Shown: positions 3,479-38,266 of the stretch, piece by piece
How positions within the stretch are numbered: position 1 is the first letter of the stretch
How the letters are laid out: each line of letters starts with the position of its first letter
NCBI GenBank assembly: GCA_015487615.1
Contig: WFPJ01000077.1
Span: 1 to 49,337 of the forward strand
Origin: Aquificales bacterium
GTDB lineage: Bacteria > Aquificota > Aquificia > Aquificales > Aquificaceae
Reading direction: 5' to 3'
DNA: 49,337 nt
Made by a program: the position numbers and the translations under genes
Notes under the pieces: generated by a model
The model's database searches: none
What the model was told of the DNA's origin: nothing
Seen by the model: the letters and a program-made list of their open reading frames with translations, nothing else

Positions 3479-4268
3479 TATAAGGTATCTATTCAAGAAA
3501 AAAGCGGAAAACAAAAAAATAACTATGCTTTCAACCTATGATTATCTCTCCGCAAAGATATGTGATTCCTGCGGTATAGATTGTATTCTTGTAGGAGATT
3601 CCCTCGGTATGGTATTTCAGGGAAAGGAAAATACCTTGTCAGTTACATTGGATGAGATGATATATCATACAAAAGCTGTAAGGAGGGGTGCTAAAAGATC
3701 CTTCGTAATAATAGATATGCCCTTTATGAGTTATCAGGTATCGGTAGAAGAAGCGGTTAGAAATTGTGGTAGGGCTATAAAGGAAAGCGGGGCGGATGCG
3801 GTAAAACTTGAAGGTGGGGAGGAAATCGCCGAAATTATATATAAATTAGTAAATGTAGGGATACCTGTGGTGGGACACATAGGGTTTATGCCTCAAAAAA
3901 TAGGTATATACGGAGGATACAAAATAGTGGGTAGGGAGGAAGAGGAAAGTAAGAAGCTAAAATCTGATTTTAAAGCCATTGAATCCGCTGGTGCATTTAT
4001 GATAATCCTTGAAACGGTTCCTTGGCAGATGGCTAAAGATATCACGGAATCTTCAAAAAGTATAACCGTCGGGATAGGTGCGGGTAAATACTGTGACGGT
4101 CAAGTACTAGTATTCCATGATTTGGTTGGTCTTGTTGAGGATATTAAGCCAAAATTCGTAAGGAGATATCTTAACGGAGCTGATCTTTTTAGGGATGCGG
4201 TAATAAGGTACAAGGAAGATGTAGAGAGGGGAGAGTTCCCTTCGGAGAGGGAAAGTTATGGATTATGA
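3465..4268 (+). CDS. panB: 3-methyl-2-oxobutanoate hydroxymethyltransferase (pantothenate)
   Basis: PanB transfers a hydroxymethyl group from methylene-tetrahydrofolate to alpha-ketoisovalerate, giving ketopantoate on the way to CoA. Signature segments are MLSTYDYLSAKICDSCGID, LVGDSLGMVFQG (metal and substrate binding), VVIDMPF-like FVIIDMPFMSYQ, KLEGG, and VGHIGFMPQ. The length of 267 aa is normal. Its ATG lies inside the proA 3' end, and its own 3' end overlaps pilB by 11 nt. This places biosynthetic and pilus genes in one continuous run. Confidence 0.96.
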   Translation: MERVSIRYLFKKKAENKKITMLSTYDYLSAKICDSCGIDCILVGDSLGMVFQGKENTLSVTLDEMIYHTKAVRRGAKRSFVIIDMPFMSYQVSVEEAVRNCGRAIKESGADAVKLEGGEEIAEIIYKLVNVGIPVVGHIGFMPQKIGIYGGYKIVGREEEESKKLKSDFKAIESAGAFMIILETVPWQMAKDITESSKSITVGIGAGKYCDGQVLVFHDLVGLVEDIKPKFVRRYLNGADLFRDAVIRYKEDVERGEFPSERESYGL

Positions 4269-5955
4269 GAGAATACTTACTTTGCTTCAGAGGTCTGGAT
4301 TTATAACACCCCAGCAAGCACAGAAGGCACTTAAAGAGAAGAAGGAGGACGAGGATATTTTTCAGACTCTTTTGAGAATAGGTGTTCTTGATGAGGATAA
4401 AGTTGTAAGCTTTTTTACGGATATAATCCCTCACAGGGTATGGACTCAAGACGGTCAAATAAATGTTCCCGAATCCATACTTAGACGATTACCTGAAGAA
4501 TTTTTGAGGAAGGCAAAGGTTGCACCAGTAAAATATGAAGATGGAAAGCTATATGTTATTATGCTTAATCCTCTGAATCAAAATCTTCTTAATGAGATAA
4601 GATTTTACACAAAGGTTAGTAACGTTATACCCCTTGTTGCTCCCTTGTCAAGTATTGAAAAGACACTTGATAGACTATTCCCAGAGTTGAGGGATGTTTT
4701 AAATGAGATAGAGGAACCTGCGGAGGTTGAAATAGCTGAAGAGGAAGAAGCGGTTCCTACGGATGTACTTATTAAGGACTCAGAAGAAGCACCTATAGTT
4801 AGGCTTGCTAACGGTTTAATATTTGAGGCTGTTAAACTTGGCGCCTCCGATATTCATATAGAGCCTTTTGAAAAGAAAGTTCTCGTAAGATACAGGGTTG
4901 ACGGTGTTTTAAGGGTGTTTCATGAACTTCCAGTAAAGATTAAAGACAGTTTAGTAGCAAGATACAAGATAATGTCCAATCTGGATATATCAGAAAAAAG
5001 AAAGCCTCAAGACGGAAGGATAAGGATATTGATCCAAAAAAAGAAGATAGATCTGAGGGTTTCAACGGTACCTACAGTGTATGGCGAAAAGGTCGTAATG
5101 AGGATTCAAGAAGCGGAGAAGTATCTCAATGTAAGACTTGAGGATCTGGGATTTGAAGATGACGACCTTGAAAAGTTCAGAAGGGCTATATGGACGCCGT
5201 GGGGAATGATACTTATAACGGGCCCAACGGGTTCAGGTAAAACTACAACTCTTTATTCCGCCCTCATGGAGAGGAACAAGCCGGATGTTAACATAATGAC
5301 CGCTGAAGATCCCGTTGAGGTAGCAATTCCCGGAATAAATCAGGTGCAAATCAATGAAAAGATAGGTCTAACCTTTGCTTCCGTTTTAAGAGCCTTTCTG
5401 AGGCAGGATCCCGATATAATCCTCGTCGGAGAGATAAGGGACTTTGAAACCGGAGATATAGCCATAAGGGCTTCCCTTACAGGTCACCTTGTATTTTCTA
5501 CACTTCATACAAATGATGCGCCTACCACGGTTACAAGGTTGACTGATATGGGTATAGAGCCTTTTCTTGTAGGATCGTCACTAATAATGGTGGTGGCACA
5601 AAGGTTAATAAGGAAGCTGTGTCCTAACTGTAAGGTTGAAGCAAAGATTCCCAGGGATGCCCTTGTAAGGATGGGTGTGTTGAAGGATGAAAGAGAAGAT
5701 ATAACCATATATGCTGAGAATCCAAACGGCTGTTCCGCGTGTAACAATACAGGTTATAAAGGTAGAACCGCGGTCCATGAGATATTGGAAGTGGACGATG
5801 AGATAAGAAGACTTATTATTAAAGGAGGAACAGCGGATGAAATAAGGGATCTTGCAAAACAAAAGGGTATGAGAACCCTTTATGAATCTGGAATACTTAA
5901 AGTAAGAAAGGGTATAACATCCATAGAAGAGATTAATAGGGTGTTAACAAAATAA
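4258..5955 (+). CDS. pilB: Type IV pilus assembly ATPase PilB
   Basis: PilB is the cytoplasmic hexameric ATPase that powers pilus extension. The N-terminal 150 residues form a GspE/MshE-N domain (FITPQQAQKALKEKKEDED start). An acidic linker and the N2 domain with SDIHIEPFEKKVLVRYRVDGVLR follow. The ATPase domain has Walker A GPTGSGKTTT (about residues 322-331), an Asp box around TAEDPVE, Walker B DIILVGEIRD and a His box TGHLVFSTLHTNDAP. A tetracysteine zinc site is visible as LCPNCK ... GCSACNNTGYKGR. The length of 565 aa is normal. pilT follows 12 nt downstream, then pilC. GspE would be the alternative name, but adjacency to pilT favours PilB. Confidence 0.95.
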   Translation: MDYERILTLLQRSGFITPQQAQKALKEKKEDEDIFQTLLRIGVLDEDKVVSFFTDIIPHRVWTQDGQINVPESILRRLPEEFLRKAKVAPVKYEDGKLYVIMLNPLNQNLLNEIRFYTKVSNVIPLVAPLSSIEKTLDRLFPELRDVLNEIEEPAEVEIAEEEEAVPTDVLIKDSEEAPIVRLANGLIFEAVKLGASDIHIEPFEKKVLVRYRVDGVLRVFHELPVKIKDSLVARYKIMSNLDISEKRKPQDGRIRILIQKKKIDLRVSTVPTVYGEKVVMRIQEAEKYLNVRLEDLGFEDDDLEKFRRAIWTPWGMILITGPTGSGKTTTLYSALMERNKPDVNIMTAEDPVEVAIPGINQVQINEKIGLTFASVLRAFLRQDPDIILVGEIRDFETGDIAIRASLTGHLVFSTLHTNDAPTTVTRLTDMGIEPFLVGSSLIMVVAQRLIRKLCPNCKVEAKIPRDALVRMGVLKDEREDITIYAENPNGCSACNNTGYKGRTAVHEILEVDDEIRRLIIKGGTADEIRDLAKQKGMRTLYESGILKVRKGITSIEEINRVLTK

Positions 5956-5967
5956 AGGAGGTAAGAT

Positions 5968-7074
5968 ATGACACCTCAAACACAGACTGCAAAACAGGAA
6001 ATTAGACTTATGGATATAGTTATGAAGGCTATATCCTACGATGCAAGCGATATTCACTTAACTCCAGGTACTCCCCCAGTTATAAGGGTTGATGGGAAAC
6101 TGAGACCGCTGGAGGATTTCCCTGTTTTGACACCAGACATGACGCAGAGACTTGCTTACTCCGTTATGCCGGAGAAACACAGAAAAACCCTTGAAGAAAC
6201 AGGTCAAGCTGATTTTTCCTTCGGTATAAAGGATGTTGGTAGATTCAGGGCGAATGTATTCTTCCAAAGGAATACCATAGCTGCTGCCTTCCGTAGATTG
6301 CCCTATAAGATTCACAGTGTAAAGGAACTTGGTCTTACAGAGAAGGTACTTGAGTTGTGTCACAAGAGTATGGGACTGGTACTTGTTACAGGTCCAACTG
6401 GTTCTGGTAAGACGACAACTCTCGCCTCTCTGATAAATTATATAAATGAGAATTTCCCTCATCATATCATAACCATAGAAGATCCCATAGAATACACGTT
6501 CCAACATAAGAAAGGAATAGTAAATCAAAGGGAAATAGGACAAGACGTACATAACTTTTCTGACGCCCTTAGGGCAGCTCTGAGGGAGGACCCGGATGTT
6601 ATCCTCGTCGGAGAAATGAGGGACAGGGAAACGATAGAGATAGCCTTAAGGGCAGCGGAAACGGGTCACCTTGTTTTTGGAACATTACACACTAATACTG
6701 CCATTTCTACTATTACAAGGATAGTAGATATATTTCCTTCAGAACAGCAAGAGCAGATAAGAGTTCAACTTTCCTTTGTCTTACAGGGTGTTATATCTCA
6801 AAGGCTCCTGCCGAAGATAGGTGGGGGAAGGGTACTTGCATACGAATTGATGATTCCTAATTCAGGTATAAGGAATCTTATAAGGGAAAACAAACTACAG
6901 CAGATTTATTCATTAATGCAAAGCGGTCAAGTTGAATCTGGTATGCAAACAATGAATCAGTCACTCTTTAAACTTTACAAGGCTGGTCTTATATCACTTG
7001 ATGATGCTATGAGGGTTTCGCCGGATATAAAGGAATTGGAGAGGATGATAAATGCTTCCGGCTTGAGGAGGTAA
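5968..7074 (+). CDS. pilT: Type IV pilus retraction ATPase PilT
   Basis: PilT is the hexameric ATPase that depolymerises the pilus and drives twitching. Visible landmarks are ASDIHLTPGTPPVIRVDGKL at the N-terminus, Walker A GPTGSGKTTT (about 139-148), an Asp box TIEDPIEY, Walker B DVILVGEMRDRETIEIALRAAETGHLVFGTLHTNTA and the AIRNLIRE-like motif (here GIRNLIREN) near 310 that is needed for retraction. The length of 368 aa is standard. The start has a strong Shine-Dalgarno sequence (AAAGGAGG) 6 nt upstream, which contrasts with the leaderless starts elsewhere in the window. Confidence 0.96.
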   Translation: MTPQTQTAKQEIRLMDIVMKAISYDASDIHLTPGTPPVIRVDGKLRPLEDFPVLTPDMTQRLAYSVMPEKHRKTLEETGQADFSFGIKDVGRFRANVFFQRNTIAAAFRRLPYKIHSVKELGLTEKVLELCHKSMGLVLVTGPTGSGKTTTLASLINYINENFPHHIITIEDPIEYTFQHKKGIVNQREIGQDVHNFSDALRAALREDPDVILVGEMRDRETIEIALRAAETGHLVFGTLHTNTAISTITRIVDIFPSEQQEQIRVQLSFVLQGVISQRLLPKIGGGRVLAYELMIPNSGIRNLIRENKLQQIYSLMQSGQVESGMQTMNQSLFKLYKAGLISLDDAMRVSPDIKELERMINASGLRR

Positions 7075-7077
7075 AAC

Positions 7078-8310
7078 ATGCCAAAGTTTAGATATAAGGC
7101 ATATACTCAGGAGGGAGTTTTGGTAGAGGAGACCGCAGAGGCTCCTACAATGCAGGAGCTTGTTAATGAGCTTAAGAGTAAGAATTATACGGTTGTTGAA
7201 GTTGAATCTCTTACACAGGAAACCAAGAAGAAGGCAGGAAAGGGTGTAAAGAAGAAAAGGATTCTTTTCGGTGGAGTCAGTGATAGAGATATGTCTCTCA
7301 TGTGCAGACAGCTGGGTGCTCTAGTAAAGGCGGGAGTGGGTATAGTTGAAGCAATTGAAATAATCGCAGAACAAATGCCTAATCCTATACTTAGTAACGC
7401 CCTTGAAAGTGTAGCTAAGATGGTTAGTGAAGGATCTTCTATAACAAATGCTATGTCCAAGCACAGAAAGGTTTTTCCCGACTTTGTTATAAATCTTGTA
7501 GCTGTGGGAGAAGAAACCGGAAATCTTGATACATCTCTTATGAGGGCTGCTGAGTATTATGAGAAAATGGCTATGATAAAAAGTAAGATAAAGAGTGCAT
7601 CCTTTTATCCGGTACTTGTTGTAGTTATTGCGACAGTTATAGTAACAGGTATATTGTACTTCCTGGTTCCTATTTTTGCAGAAATTTACGCATCTTTCGG
7701 TGCTACATTACCTTTACCCACCCAGATTCTTATAAACGCTTCAAATTTCCTTAAATCCAATATACTTCAAATTCTGGGAGGGACCGCTCTCATTATAGTT
7801 GCTTTTAGATATATGATGAGAAAAAGCTATGGTTTCAGAAAGAATGTTCACAGGTTTATATTGAGGATTCCCAAATTCGGTGATCTTGCCCTTAAAAGCG
7901 CAATGGCTAAATTCGGCAGAACAATGGCTACTCTCTTTGTCAGCGGTGTATCTCTTGATAGGGCTTTACAGATTGCTTCTGAGGTTGCTGGTAATCTCAT
8001 TATAAAGGAAGCGGTTGATTTAGTTCAAAAGGAAGTAACTGAGGGGCAACCTATGTGGCAGGCAATGGAAAGACAGGGTATATTTCCTAGGTTGGCTGTG
8101 GCTATGGTTAAAGTTGGTGAAGAGACTGGTAATCTTGACGATATGCTTGAGTCCCTTGCAAGATTTTATGAGGATGAGGTTGATAAAACAGTTGAAGGTA
8201 TTGTTACCCTGATAGAACCTTTGCTTGTTGTTACCATAGGTTGTATAGTGGGTGTCATACTTATAGCACTTTACATGCCTATATTCAAAATAGGTGAAAT
8301 TATTAAGTAA
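7078..8310 (+). CDS. pilC: Type IV pilus inner-membrane platform protein PilC
   Basis: PilC is the membrane platform on which PilB and PilT act. It is 410 aa with the characteristic duplicated GspF/PilC domain: each half carries an ALVKAGV/LFVSGVSLDRAL-type motif and a VGEETGNLD motif (at about 142-150 and 342-350). Three hydrophobic stretches are visible near residues 180-200, 225-245 and 380-400. The N-terminus (MPKFRYKAYTQEGVLVEE) is the usual small beta domain. The start follows a GAGGAGG Shine-Dalgarno sequence. Its stop overlaps the ATG of the next gene (TAATG). No major pilin gene occurs in the window. Confidence 0.95.
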   Translation: MPKFRYKAYTQEGVLVEETAEAPTMQELVNELKSKNYTVVEVESLTQETKKKAGKGVKKKRILFGGVSDRDMSLMCRQLGALVKAGVGIVEAIEIIAEQMPNPILSNALESVAKMVSEGSSITNAMSKHRKVFPDFVINLVAVGEETGNLDTSLMRAAEYYEKMAMIKSKIKSASFYPVLVVVIATVIVTGILYFLVPIFAEIYASFGATLPLPTQILINASNFLKSNILQILGGTALIIVAFRYMMRKSYGFRKNVHRFILRIPKFGDLALKSAMAKFGRTMATLFVSGVSLDRALQIASEVAGNLIIKEAVDLVQKEVTEGQPMWQAMERQGIFPRLAVAMVKVGEETGNLDDMLESLARFYEDEVDKTVEGIVTLIEPLLVVTIGCIVGVILIALYMPIFKIGEIIK

Positions 8311-35164: not shown

Positions 35165-35932
35165 ATGAGGCTTGATAAGTTCTTGGTTGATAGGGGATTG
35201 GTAAAATCTAGAGAAGAGGGGCAGGCACTTATAATGATGGGGTGTGTACTTGTTAACGGAAAGGAGATAACAAAAGCGGGTTATCAGGTAAAGGGTGATG
35301 AAAATATAGAGATAAAAGAAAGGATGAAATATGTTTCAAGGGGAGGGTACAAACTTGAGAATGCCCTTGATCGCTTCCGTATTGATGTCAGCGGGATGGT
35401 TGCATTGGATGTGGGTTCTTCAACGGGAGGGTTTACCGATTGTCTTTTGCAGAGAGGAGCAAAAAAGGTTTATGCGGTTGATGTAGGTAAAGGGCAGATG
35501 GATCTTAAATTGCGTCAGGATCCAAGAGTAATTCTTTATGAAAAACTTGATGCAAGAAATATAGGCAAGGAACATGTACCGGAGAAAGTGGATATAATTA
35601 CAGTGGATGTTTCCTTTATTTCCCAATGTAAGATACTTTCCAATGTTCTTTCCTTTCTGAAAGATAGTGGAATACTTCTTTCCCTTGTAAAACCTCAGTT
35701 TGAATTATCCCCAAAACAGGTAAGAAAGGGAATAGTAAGAAGCGTAGAGGATAAGAAGGAAGCTATAAGAAAGGTGGTGGAATGCATTAAAAAGGAAGGT
35801 TTATACATAAAGGGTATCGTTAAAGCTTTTCCAAAAGGTACTAAGGGAAATGAGGAATTTTTTATCTGTGCTAAAAGTGAAAAACCTGATATAAATATAG
35901 ATAATGAAATTGGAAGGGCAGTTTATGAATAA
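35165..35932 (+). CDS. tlyA: TlyA-family rRNA 2'-O-methyltransferase (S4 plus FtsJ)
   Basis: A 255-residue protein with an S4 RNA-binding domain (MRLDKFLVDRGLVKSREEGQALIMMGCVLVNGK, residues 1-60) and an FtsJ-like methyltransferase domain (YVSRGGYKLENAL; ALDVGSSTGGFTDCLLQRGAKKVYAVDVG; DVSFISQ; LVKPQFE). TlyA proteins 2'-O-methylate rRNA and were once annotated as hemolysins. The size is normal. The next gene begins inside its last codons (ATGAATAA). Confidence 0.95.
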   Translation: MRLDKFLVDRGLVKSREEGQALIMMGCVLVNGKEITKAGYQVKGDENIEIKERMKYVSRGGYKLENALDRFRIDVSGMVALDVGSSTGGFTDCLLQRGAKKVYAVDVGKGQMDLKLRQDPRVILYEKLDARNIGKEHVPEKVDIITVDVSFISQCKILSNVLSFLKDSGILLSLVKPQFELSPKQVRKGIVRSVEDKKEAIRKVVECIKKEGLYIKGIVKAFPKGTKGNEEFFICAKSEKPDINIDNEIGRAVYE

Positions 35933-36314
35933 AATGTTTGTGAATAACACATTAAGGGGAGAGGTGGGTGTTTATCCTTTAACAGCGGAGAACCTCTTCA
36001 GGATAGGTACAGCTATAGCCATGGTTTTGGAAGAGAAAGGTTATGTGGATATTACTATGTGCCTTTGCAGTATTGACTTTGCTACTCTCTCAATTGCTGT
36101 AGGATTTATGGGAGGCGGCGGTTCCGTATTTATCAACGGAAGTGCATCCTTGTGTGTTAAGGGTAAATATGATGGTGAGATATATACCCTTGAGATAGAA
36201 GGACTTTCCTATGAGGATTTTGATAAGGTGGAAAGGATACTACTTGGGAGAAATATATTAAAGAGGAAAAAGGGTAAGCATATAGGAAAAATAACCTACT
36301 GCAGGGGTCTGTAA
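35925..36314 (+). CDS. Stand-alone, degenerate phosphohexomutase domain-I-like protein
   Basis: A 129-residue protein from the ATG at 35925 (MNKMFVNNTLRGEVG), which has GGAAGG upstream; the tracked 35904 is less likely. Residues 4-75 match the layout of the first domain of phosphoglucomutase/phosphomannomutase: FVNNTLRG for FGTDGIRG, PLTAENLFRIGTAIA for LTPE..LRLGRA, then a strand and DFATLSIAVGFMGGGGSVF for the S/A-rich helix. The catalytic serine loop (TASHNP) is absent, so it cannot be an active mutase. This is pattern recognition only. It may bind a sugar phosphate or a protein, or be a structural relic kept in the operon. Confidence 0.55.
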   Translation: MNKMFVNNTLRGEVGVYPLTAENLFRIGTAIAMVLEEKGYVDITMCLCSIDFATLSIAVGFMGGGGSVFINGSASLCVKGKYDGEIYTLEIEGLSYEDFDKVERILLGRNILKRKKGKHIGKITYCRGL

Positions 36315-36317
36315 ATA

Positions 36318-36566
36318 ATGGATGTTAAGAAGGAGTCTTTAGAACTGGGAAGGGAAACCATAACGCTTCTAATTGAATATGGAACACAAATTGACGATAT
36401 ATACAGAAGATTCAGGGAGTTGAGATTAAGATGCAACGAGCTTTCCTTTCAGTCCGCTCTGTTGAATGTGGAACATGCATTCTTTATGGTTGTTCAAAGT
36501 ATGAATATACTTAGGGAACAAATAAAGTTGTTAGAAATAGCAAAAGAAAGGAAGGAGGTGGAATGA
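36318..36566 (+). CDS. Small helical protein of unknown function
   Basis: An 82-residue, charged, almost wholly helical protein (MDVKKESLELGRETITLLIEYGTQIDDIYRRFRELRLRC) with heptad-like spacing of Leu and Ile. There is no signal peptide and no metal motif. It lies 3 nt after the mutase-like gene and overlaps the next gene by 4 nt (ATGA), so it is probably made in step with the pseudo-receiver protein and may be its partner. I do not recognise a family. Confidence 0.6.
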   Translation: MDVKKESLELGRETITLLIEYGTQIDDIYRRFRELRLRCNELSFQSALLNVEHAFFMVVQSMNILREQIKLLEIAKERKEVE

Positions 36567-38266
36567 AAGCTATTAAAGCCCTTCTTCTTGATAAGAAGGC
36601 TGAACTTTTTGAGATACTGGGTGATATTTTTAATGTAACCGGTCACAAGTTGATAGTAGCAAAGACCGAAGATCAGGCATTGGATCTTCTTAAGGCGGTT
36701 GATGTGGACATAATACTATTACCCTATGAGGATAGGGACTTTTGGGTTCACTCAAGGAAAGACCACGGTATAAAAGGAATATATCCCATGTTCATAGGAG
36801 AAAAGGAGGAGGAGCTCAGAGACATAGTTGAAATGGGTTTTTCCTACGTCAATTTCATAATGAAACCTTTTAATCCCCTTGATCTTCTCAACAGAATAGG
36901 ACATCTTTCAACCCTTGAAGAACATGAGGATCTCTCTGTCTTCGGCTTGCTTAATGTACTTATAGAGATGGAGAAACATGAAGAAACAGGATATGTGGAA
37001 CTGTCGCATAATGATGAGAAATGCATACTTTTTGTAGAGGGTGGAACCGTTAAGGAATCCACATGTGATACTGATGTTTTAAAAGGTCTGTTCGTCAAAG
37101 AGCCTGATATAACCAAGCTTCCCATTGTTGAGGACTTTGTTGCCAAGGAGCAGTTTAACTCAACAGATGATCTTATAGAAAAACTGTGGGTTGAGATGGA
37201 AGAGGTAGTTGAAGAGAAAGTGATAGAAGTAAAATTTGAGGATAGACTAAAAGAGCTTATAAGGGAAGTTGAGGAGGATGTATATTGCATACAGTTCCGC
37301 AGTGATAAGGATCTCTTGAGTAAAAATGCTTATCTTAGGGTGTTTAGAAATGGTGATACAAAGATAAACATGCTTATAAATCCGTGGCATCAGATAGTAT
37401 GGGGTGATATAAAGGCATGTATTGAACACCTCATAGGTGATATTAAATCACTGCACATAGTTATGCTCTTGACTCAAGATGTGTTTAAAAACCAGAATAT
37501 TATCAGGATAATGGAGGCTAATCCAAAGGTTACTCTTATAACCACGAGAGATATAGTGCATTCAATGAGGCTTGCGGGTATGCCAGCCTTCAAAACGAGA
37601 ACTCTTGATCTTTTTAGATATTTCAAGGTGACCCTTGCTACGGGTCATACGCTGAGTTTTATACCCGCCCCATACACGCCATATAAGGGTAACTTTGCGG
37701 TTATGGAAAGGGAGAAGGGAATACTTTATACATCAGAGATTTTCAGTTCAATGATCCCCGCATCACGCTTGTCTGATATAACAGCATTTGATCCGCATGG
37801 TATAAAAATATTCCACATGATACATATGCCCCATTCGGAAGGTGTGAAAAACTTTATAAATAGCTTAGAGGAATTACCTAAGTGGATACTACCCGCTTAT
37901 GGCAGTCTGTTGAAGGGTGAGGATGTTCAAAAGGCTGTAAATGTTTTGTCAAAGGTTAGTATGGGTATTGAACTTCCTATCATAAGGGATAAACAGGAAG
38001 CTATACTGATACTGAATGAAACCTTATCCTATATAAAAGGTAGGATAGACGGGGAGCTTTTCAGGGATATACTTTCCGAACTTGAAAGGTTTGCATTAAT
38101 AGAAAAGGGTAGGATAGTGGATGTACTGACGGAACCTTCCATCACCATTGATCAACTTTTCATATCTCTTTGTAACGTAAAATCTGTCAGTGATGAAATA
38201 ATGTACGATATACTAAACTTTATAAGTGAAAGGGAGGTTATGCTTCCCGCATTTATGTGCCTGTAG
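36563..38266 (+). CDS. Pseudo-receiver / PATAN-like / ODP-like (diiron MBL-fold) fusion
   Basis: A 567-residue three-part protein. Residues 1-115 look like a response-regulator receiver (ALLLDKKAELFEILGD ... NFIMKPFNPLDLLNRI), but the phospho-Asp position reads DIILLPYED, so it is probably not phosphorylated. Residues about 125-215 look like a PATAN/DUF4388 domain (VFGLLNVLIEMEKHEETGYVEL, CILFVEGGTVKES). Residues about 245-460 resemble the metallo-beta-lactamase fold of oxygen-binding diiron (ODP) proteins and flavodiiron proteins: AYLRVF.., TGHTLSFIPAPYTPYKGNFAVMEREKGILYTSEIFSS, WILPAYGSLLKG. The usual ligand strings HxExDH, SGDAFG and PSHG are changed to TQDVFK, TSEIFS and PAYG, so iron binding is doubtful. 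The role is unknown. Confidence 0.65.
   Translation: MKAIKALLLDKKAELFEILGDIFNVTGHKLIVAKTEDQALDLLKAVDVDIILLPYEDRDFWVHSRKDHGIKGIYPMFIGEKEEELRDIVEMGFSYVNFIMKPFNPLDLLNRIGHLSTLEEHEDLSVFGLLNVLIEMEKHEETGYVELSHNDEKCILFVEGGTVKESTCDTDVLKGLFVKEPDITKLPIVEDFVAKEQFNSTDDLIEKLWVEMEEVVEEKVIEVKFEDRLKELIREVEEDVYCIQFRSDKDLLSKNAYLRVFRNGDTKINMLINPWHQIVWGDIKACIEHLIGDIKSLHIVMLLTQDVFKNQNIIRIMEANPKVTLITTRDIVHSMRLAGMPAFKTRTLDLFRYFKVTLATGHTLSFIPAPYTPYKGNFAVMEREKGILYTSEIFSSMIPASRLSDITAFDPHGIKIFHMIHMPHSEGVKNFINSLEELPKWILPAYGSLLKGEDVQKAVNVLSKVSMGIELPIIRDKQEAILILNETLSYIKGRIDGELFRDILSELERFALIEKGRIVDVLTEPSITIDQLFISLCNVKSVSDEIMYDILNFISEREVMLPAFMCL

Follow-up and report, generated by a model that had tools for sequence, protein, structure and literature searches.

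Layout of the locus and of the 567-aa protein

Within the window, i.e., the whole stretch of 49,337 nucleotides under analysis, the gene for a 567-aa protein stands at the end of a tlyA-136aa-82aa-567aa run, whose neighbouring ORFs overlap or sit a few bases apart. The features are the following:

35165..35932, + strand: tlyA-like gene (S4 and FtsJ methyltransferase), first of the local operon (profile)
35904..36314, + strand: 136-aa protein similar to domain I of phosphohexomutases (GlmM) but lacking the catalytic serine loop; normally the cluster's third gene (alignment A3)
36318..36566, + strand: 82-aa helical protein, with a 4-base overlap with the start of the 567-aa gene; 75% mean column identity (ORF, alignment A2)
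36563..38266, + strand: 567-aa protein with pseudo-receiver, PATAN-like domain, ligand-less ODP/MBL fold and helical C-terminal domain (ORF, profiles, AlphaFold model, dN/dS about 0.05)
36563..36910, + strand: pseudo-receiver domain, residues 1-116, with D10 kept and P54 at the phospho-Asp site (profile, alignment, model, fold match)
36911..37195, + strand: PATAN-like domain, residues 117-211, DUF4388 being recognisable in its first half (profiles, model)
37022..37066, + strand: codons of C154 (46/46) and C168 (44/46) with the intervening hairpin (ortholog alignment; strands from models)
37268..37978, + strand: MBL fold of the ODP/flavodiiron N-domain, residues 236-472, with ligand positions that are lost or vary among orthologs (Pfam, Foldseek, alignment)
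37979..38263, + strand: helical C-terminal domain, residues 473-567, without family (model; dN/dS 0.02-0.05)

The ortholog alignment of the 567-aa protein (A1) comprises 46 members with a mean column identity of 44%; by named matches, the closest relatives are Aquificales metagenome bins. Its full-length AlphaFold model showed a pLDDT of 87.8, and that of residues 1-214 a pLDDT of 92.6 and a pTM of 0.89. In the model, helices make up most of the C-terminal 95 residues, and comparison of this domain with the PATAN families (hhalign) gave no match. The search of contigs with the 567-aa protein retrieved three close relatives and one short match of 37 residues, that of plasmids retrieved none, and neither repeats nor promoter patterns in the surroundings of the gene revealed anything relevant to the reading of the protein. 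The 136-aa protein, conserved in most of the family, adds a further apparent pseudo-enzyme to the operon.

Receiver and ODP folds and their active sites

Residues 4-116 of the A1 profile match CpxR and other receivers in the PDB (E 1.2e-8), the profile search of this first third being one of the checks proposed in the earlier note on this DNA, and the model of the N-terminal half (residues 1-214) matches receiver structures with TM values up to 0.78 by target length (Foldseek). By profile and fold match the domain has the fold of the Receiver family (PF00072), but it does not hold the family's set of phospho-Asp, acidic pair, Thr/Ser, and Lys. Although D10 is invariant among the 46 orthologs, residue 54 at the end of beta-3 is Pro in the window protein and Asp in only 3 of the 46, so that the absence of the phospho-Asp, first noticed in the motif LLPYED, holds. 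Most orthologs have a hydrophobic residue or Gly at the Thr/Ser site, and Lys101 is retained in 19/46. D57 (Asp in 32/46) was considered as a shifted phospho-Asp and rejected, since the model puts it in the following helix, three residues beyond the point where beta-3 ends. Thus, as judged from its sequence, the N-terminal domain is a pseudo-receiver as defined in PMC12632262; such domains are common, yet the way in which they are activated and inactivated is not understood (PMC12632262).

Pfam ODP (PF19583) matches the window protein with E 1.3e-14 (54.9 bits versus a cut-off of 27.2) as well as 44 of the 46 orthologs, and residues 235-473 of the A1 profile match ODP structures in the PDB (E 4.7e-19). 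Upon comparison of the predicted structure with ODP, also proposed earlier as a check, the MBL fold of the full model matched 6qrq and 6qnm (Foldseek, TM 0.78 by target length), the ligand positions being changed. The protein is accordingly placed in PF19583 by a sequence score above the Pfam cut-off and by its MBL fold, but not by the diiron ligands HxDxD, H, D, H. ODP of Treponema denticola and Thermotoga maritima (PF19583; 6qnm, 6qrq) is likewise a signalling protein (PMC7666581), with which the 567-aa protein shares the fold and significant sequence similarity; the 567-aa protein differs in that its metal ligands are lost and in that a receiver and a PATAN-like domain precede the ODP fold in the same chain.

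Ligand positions were compared by aligning the 46 orthologs with ten ligand-intact ODPs of the same phylum, two of them encoded by the window's own genome (L002 and L003, HQDPD..H..GD..QHG). The window residues at positions 304/306/308/373/392/446 are T/D/F/P/E/Y, only D306 among the six still matching. Positions 304, 373 and 446 are never His among the 46 orthologs; the ligand His at 373 is replaced by Pro in 43/46 and that at another ligand site by an aromatic residue in 38/46, while position 392 is Asp in only 2/46. This loss of ligands in the ODP half is ancestral. The earlier note had described it as loss of an HxExDH string, of the Asp of SGDAFG and of the His of PSHG. Two points are corrected: intact ODPs here read HxDxD instead of HxExDH, and the loss extends to one more site, Pro373, which in AHYLHSVG is the second His.

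The ODP fold being intact, and Asp or Glu being present at residue 306 in 25, at 308 in 17 and at 392 in 20 of the 46 orthologs, it could be argued that the protein still binds metal via shifted ligands and senses oxygen as ODP does. On the contrary, across the ODP half not a single His, Cys, Asp or Glu column reaches 90% conservation among the 46 orthologs, the most conserved acidic residue being E288 (39/46), so that neither a shared alternative metal site nor intact iron ligands at shifted positions, which would have spoken against the first reading, were found there. Considering also the replacement of ligand His by Pro or aromatic residues and the two intact ODPs encoded by the same genome, retained metal binding is very improbable, and diiron sensing of oxygen, to which the protein had been proposed to adjust pilus motility, is not supported, ligand His being absent from all 46 orthologs. 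The description of three joined folds without their usual chemistry is confirmed, the residue losses by alignment and the receiver and ODP folds by profile and model, with a weak PATAN call for the middle one.

Conservation of the gene, its PATAN-like middle and a Cys pair

In the search of the phylum, 57 of the 64 genomes of f1, the window's family, gave matches that include the N-terminal part, a few of these matches being fragmented (families and genera carry f and g numbers from the kinship labelling of the tool). Within f1 the gene is missing from G017, all five g5 genomes and G035, and in no other family did any match cover receiver and ODP together. Among congeners, dN/dS amounts to 0.047-0.054 for the whole gene and to 0.02-0.05 within the folded domains, a 24-residue linker being relaxed. 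Some signs of decay do appear: the gene is split by one frameshift past the PATAN-like part in the Aquifex-like G001 (L056 8407-9973), lies in two pieces in G005 and is degenerate in G042. However, it is full length in most of the 57 genomes and dN/dS remains at about 0.05 in all folded domains, which refutes decay for the window's lineage and makes it a negligible explanation overall. Retained in 57/64 genomes of the family and strongly constrained by purifying selection (dN/dS about 0.05), the 567-aa product is a working protein, not a decaying one.

The middle domain was originally read as PATAN. It is better called a short PATAN-like module, the match being weak and partial: DUF4388 (PF14332) matches 5/46 orthologs, with 1.5e-4 at best, and the scores of relatives, 17-18 bits where the curated cut-off is 25, come from the first half of the profile, which is the only half of the domain that resembles DUF4388. 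Comparison with the local PATAN family (hhalign) was weak as well (probability 33%, E 5e-4, 42 columns), and no solved PATAN structure appeared among the structure matches.

This module carries an almost invariant Cys pair, missed at first reading, with C154 in 46/46 and C168 in 44/46 orthologs, whereas the next best Cys column reaches 14/46. DSSP on the models places residue 154 within strand 152-159 and residue 168 just past strand 162-166 of one hairpin, making a C154-C168 disulfide geometrically plausible in the models, and from the alignment the two residues are a candidate disulfide or redox pair. Of the oxygen or redox sensor originally envisaged, the diiron oxygen part is not supported, and redox sensing may still apply because of this pair. 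The protein might then be a thiol redox sensor in which, the diiron site being lost, the signal is now a C154-C168 disulfide in the PATAN-like hairpin that alters docking. Such a sensor would be consistent with the near invariance of both residues, with their predicted position on neighbouring strands, and with the equivalent positions not being Cys in the local PATAN family. Nevertheless, C168 is missing from orthologs L020 and L021, which look normal in other respects, and cytosolic proteins of hyperthermophiles often contain stable disulfides with a structural role, so that we consider thiol sensing unlikely. Still less probable is the more elaborate scenario in which the protein gave up both Asp phosphorylation and diiron oxygen binding, the Cys pair becoming a switch that reports redox state to a pilus or secretion machine via the 82-aa partner.

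The putative 82-aa partner, gene neighbourhood and proposed role

The 82-aa gene lies directly upstream of the 567-aa gene in nearly all relatives, while outer neighbours differ, and its product is far more conserved than the 567-aa protein (mean column identity 75% versus 44%). It was found in 59/64 genomes of f1 and 36/41 of f2, two Aquificales families, and has no relative in Pfam, NCBIfam or the PDB, where the search with its profile gave chance matches only. Because it occurs in f2 and g5 without the 567-aa gene, the 82-aa protein has a function of its own; it probably also forms a complex with the 567-aa protein. In f2 (L086 8113-8731), the genes downstream of the 82-aa homolog encode first a conserved protein of ~130 aa without family and then a thioredoxin-like protein.

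Regarding the outer context, the order rpsM-rpsK-rpsD-rpoA-rplQ-yggT-tlyA-136aa-82aa-567aa is displayed by most g4, g7, g9 and g10 genomes, and lpxA-glmU lie downstream in g2, the names of the ribosomal and lpxA/glmU genes having been assigned by reading their sequences. These two contexts would favour an adaptor with no connection to pili that has a housekeeping role in translation or envelope synthesis, is expressed with the ribosomal genes and the GlmM-like fragment and acts with TlyA, YggT or UDP-GlcNAc enzymes. Such neighbours vary between genera while the 82-aa gene stays, however, and gspK-gspF are found downstream in g11, features that leave a housekeeping role doubtful, about on a par with thiol sensing.

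A pilus role had been proposed from the pilB-pilT-pilC genes of the window, since PATAN regulators bind PilB in cyanobacteria (PMC7690835, PMC10519157). These genes, at 4258-8310, are 28-32 kb from the 567-aa gene, a spacing that recurs only within the window's genus (G060, G061); in relatives whose genomes are complete, the pilT genes with the best scores are at least 100 kb away. Their proximity was therefore rejected as evidence, and the phylogenetic profile of PilT, nearly universal, gave no signal. Other neighbours nonetheless keep a pilus role in play. In two genomes of g11, the only genus with this arrangement, GspK-like and GspF-like genes follow it at most a few bases apart, and the genes convergent to it in g4 encode an Arf/Ras-like GTPase and a protein that has HEAT repeats besides a partial PATAN. 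Stand-alone PATAN proteins of these genomes adjoin MglA-like GTPase and roadblock genes, and g5 has neither the 567-aa gene nor the MglA-like and PATAN genes, though PilT is kept; this co-loss may be a single event. The correspondence is not strict, the 82-aa and MglA-PATAN genes being present in f2 without the 567-aa gene, and G049 (96% complete) having the latter with no strong MglA or stand-alone PATAN match. The g11 and g4 neighbours and the g5 co-loss give partial support to a pilus role, the 567-aa protein possibly controlling pili.

Two arrangements were observed alongside. The g4 genes convergent to the 567-aa gene (L122 2849-5077) encode a 152-aa protein, an Arf-like GTPase and a protein of 420 aa in which a partial PATAN is combined with a zinc ribbon and HEAT repeats, and at L117 6307-7904, in the window's own genome, there is a roadblock - PATAN (DUF4388, 230 aa, TrmB-like tail) - Ras/Arf-like GTPase cluster, order-wide and missing in g5.

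Because neither phosphorylation of its receiver nor iron binding by its ODP fold is to be expected from the residues left, the 567-aa protein of these heat-loving Aquificales has probably become a pure docking protein. The adaptor role considered from the start is supported by both chemistries being gone family-wide in a protein under purifying selection, and we give even chances to a phosphate- and metal-independent protein-binding adaptor that works with the 82-aa partner and may act on a pilus/secretion or MglA-like system. In such an adaptor (i) receiver and ODP domain would be retained as folded docking surfaces engaged in protein-protein contacts only, (ii) the protein would be co-made with the 82-aa helical protein from the overlapping upstream gene, their near-constant adjacency pointing to a complex, and (iii) in the weakest step, the PATAN-like module would act on the inner-membrane type IV pilus/type II secretion machine or on an MglA-like GTPase system. 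This last action is proposed tentatively and is somewhat less probable than the adaptor itself; counting against its pilus side, the commonest neighbourhood is ribosomal/tlyA, not pili. A dead receiver and a dead ODP kept under strong selection throughout a family of deep-branching thermophiles, accompanied by an unvarying small neighbour and an almost invariant Cys pair, offer a compact test case for the roles of domains after their chemistry is gone.

Several known systems resemble this architecture in part. FrzS of Myxococcus xanthus, a pseudo-receiver protein in pilus formation with MglA and SgmX (PMC11580455), shares the pseudo-receiver, but its second part is a coiled coil instead of PATAN and ODP. 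The cyanobacterial PATAN-CheY regulators PixG, PixE and LsiR also join PATAN and receiver in one protein, although PATAN comes first in them and after the receiver here, where its match is weak and partial. The stand-alone Aquificota PATAN (DUF4388) proteins beside roadblock/MglA-like genes belong to the same domain family and the same genomes, but they have a complete DUF4388 and a TrmB-like tail, with no receiver or ODP. Finally, ODP-GGDEF proteins of the same class (L058-L060, L062-L064) join ODP to signalling domains in the same phylum; unlike the 567-aa protein, they keep intact ligands and an enzymatic output domain, with no receiver or PATAN. Those encoded at L058, L059, L060, L062, L063 and L064, of ~550 aa with an N-terminal intact ODP and a C-terminal GGDEF (GGEEF motif), are candidate diiron oxygen-controlled diguanylate cyclases.
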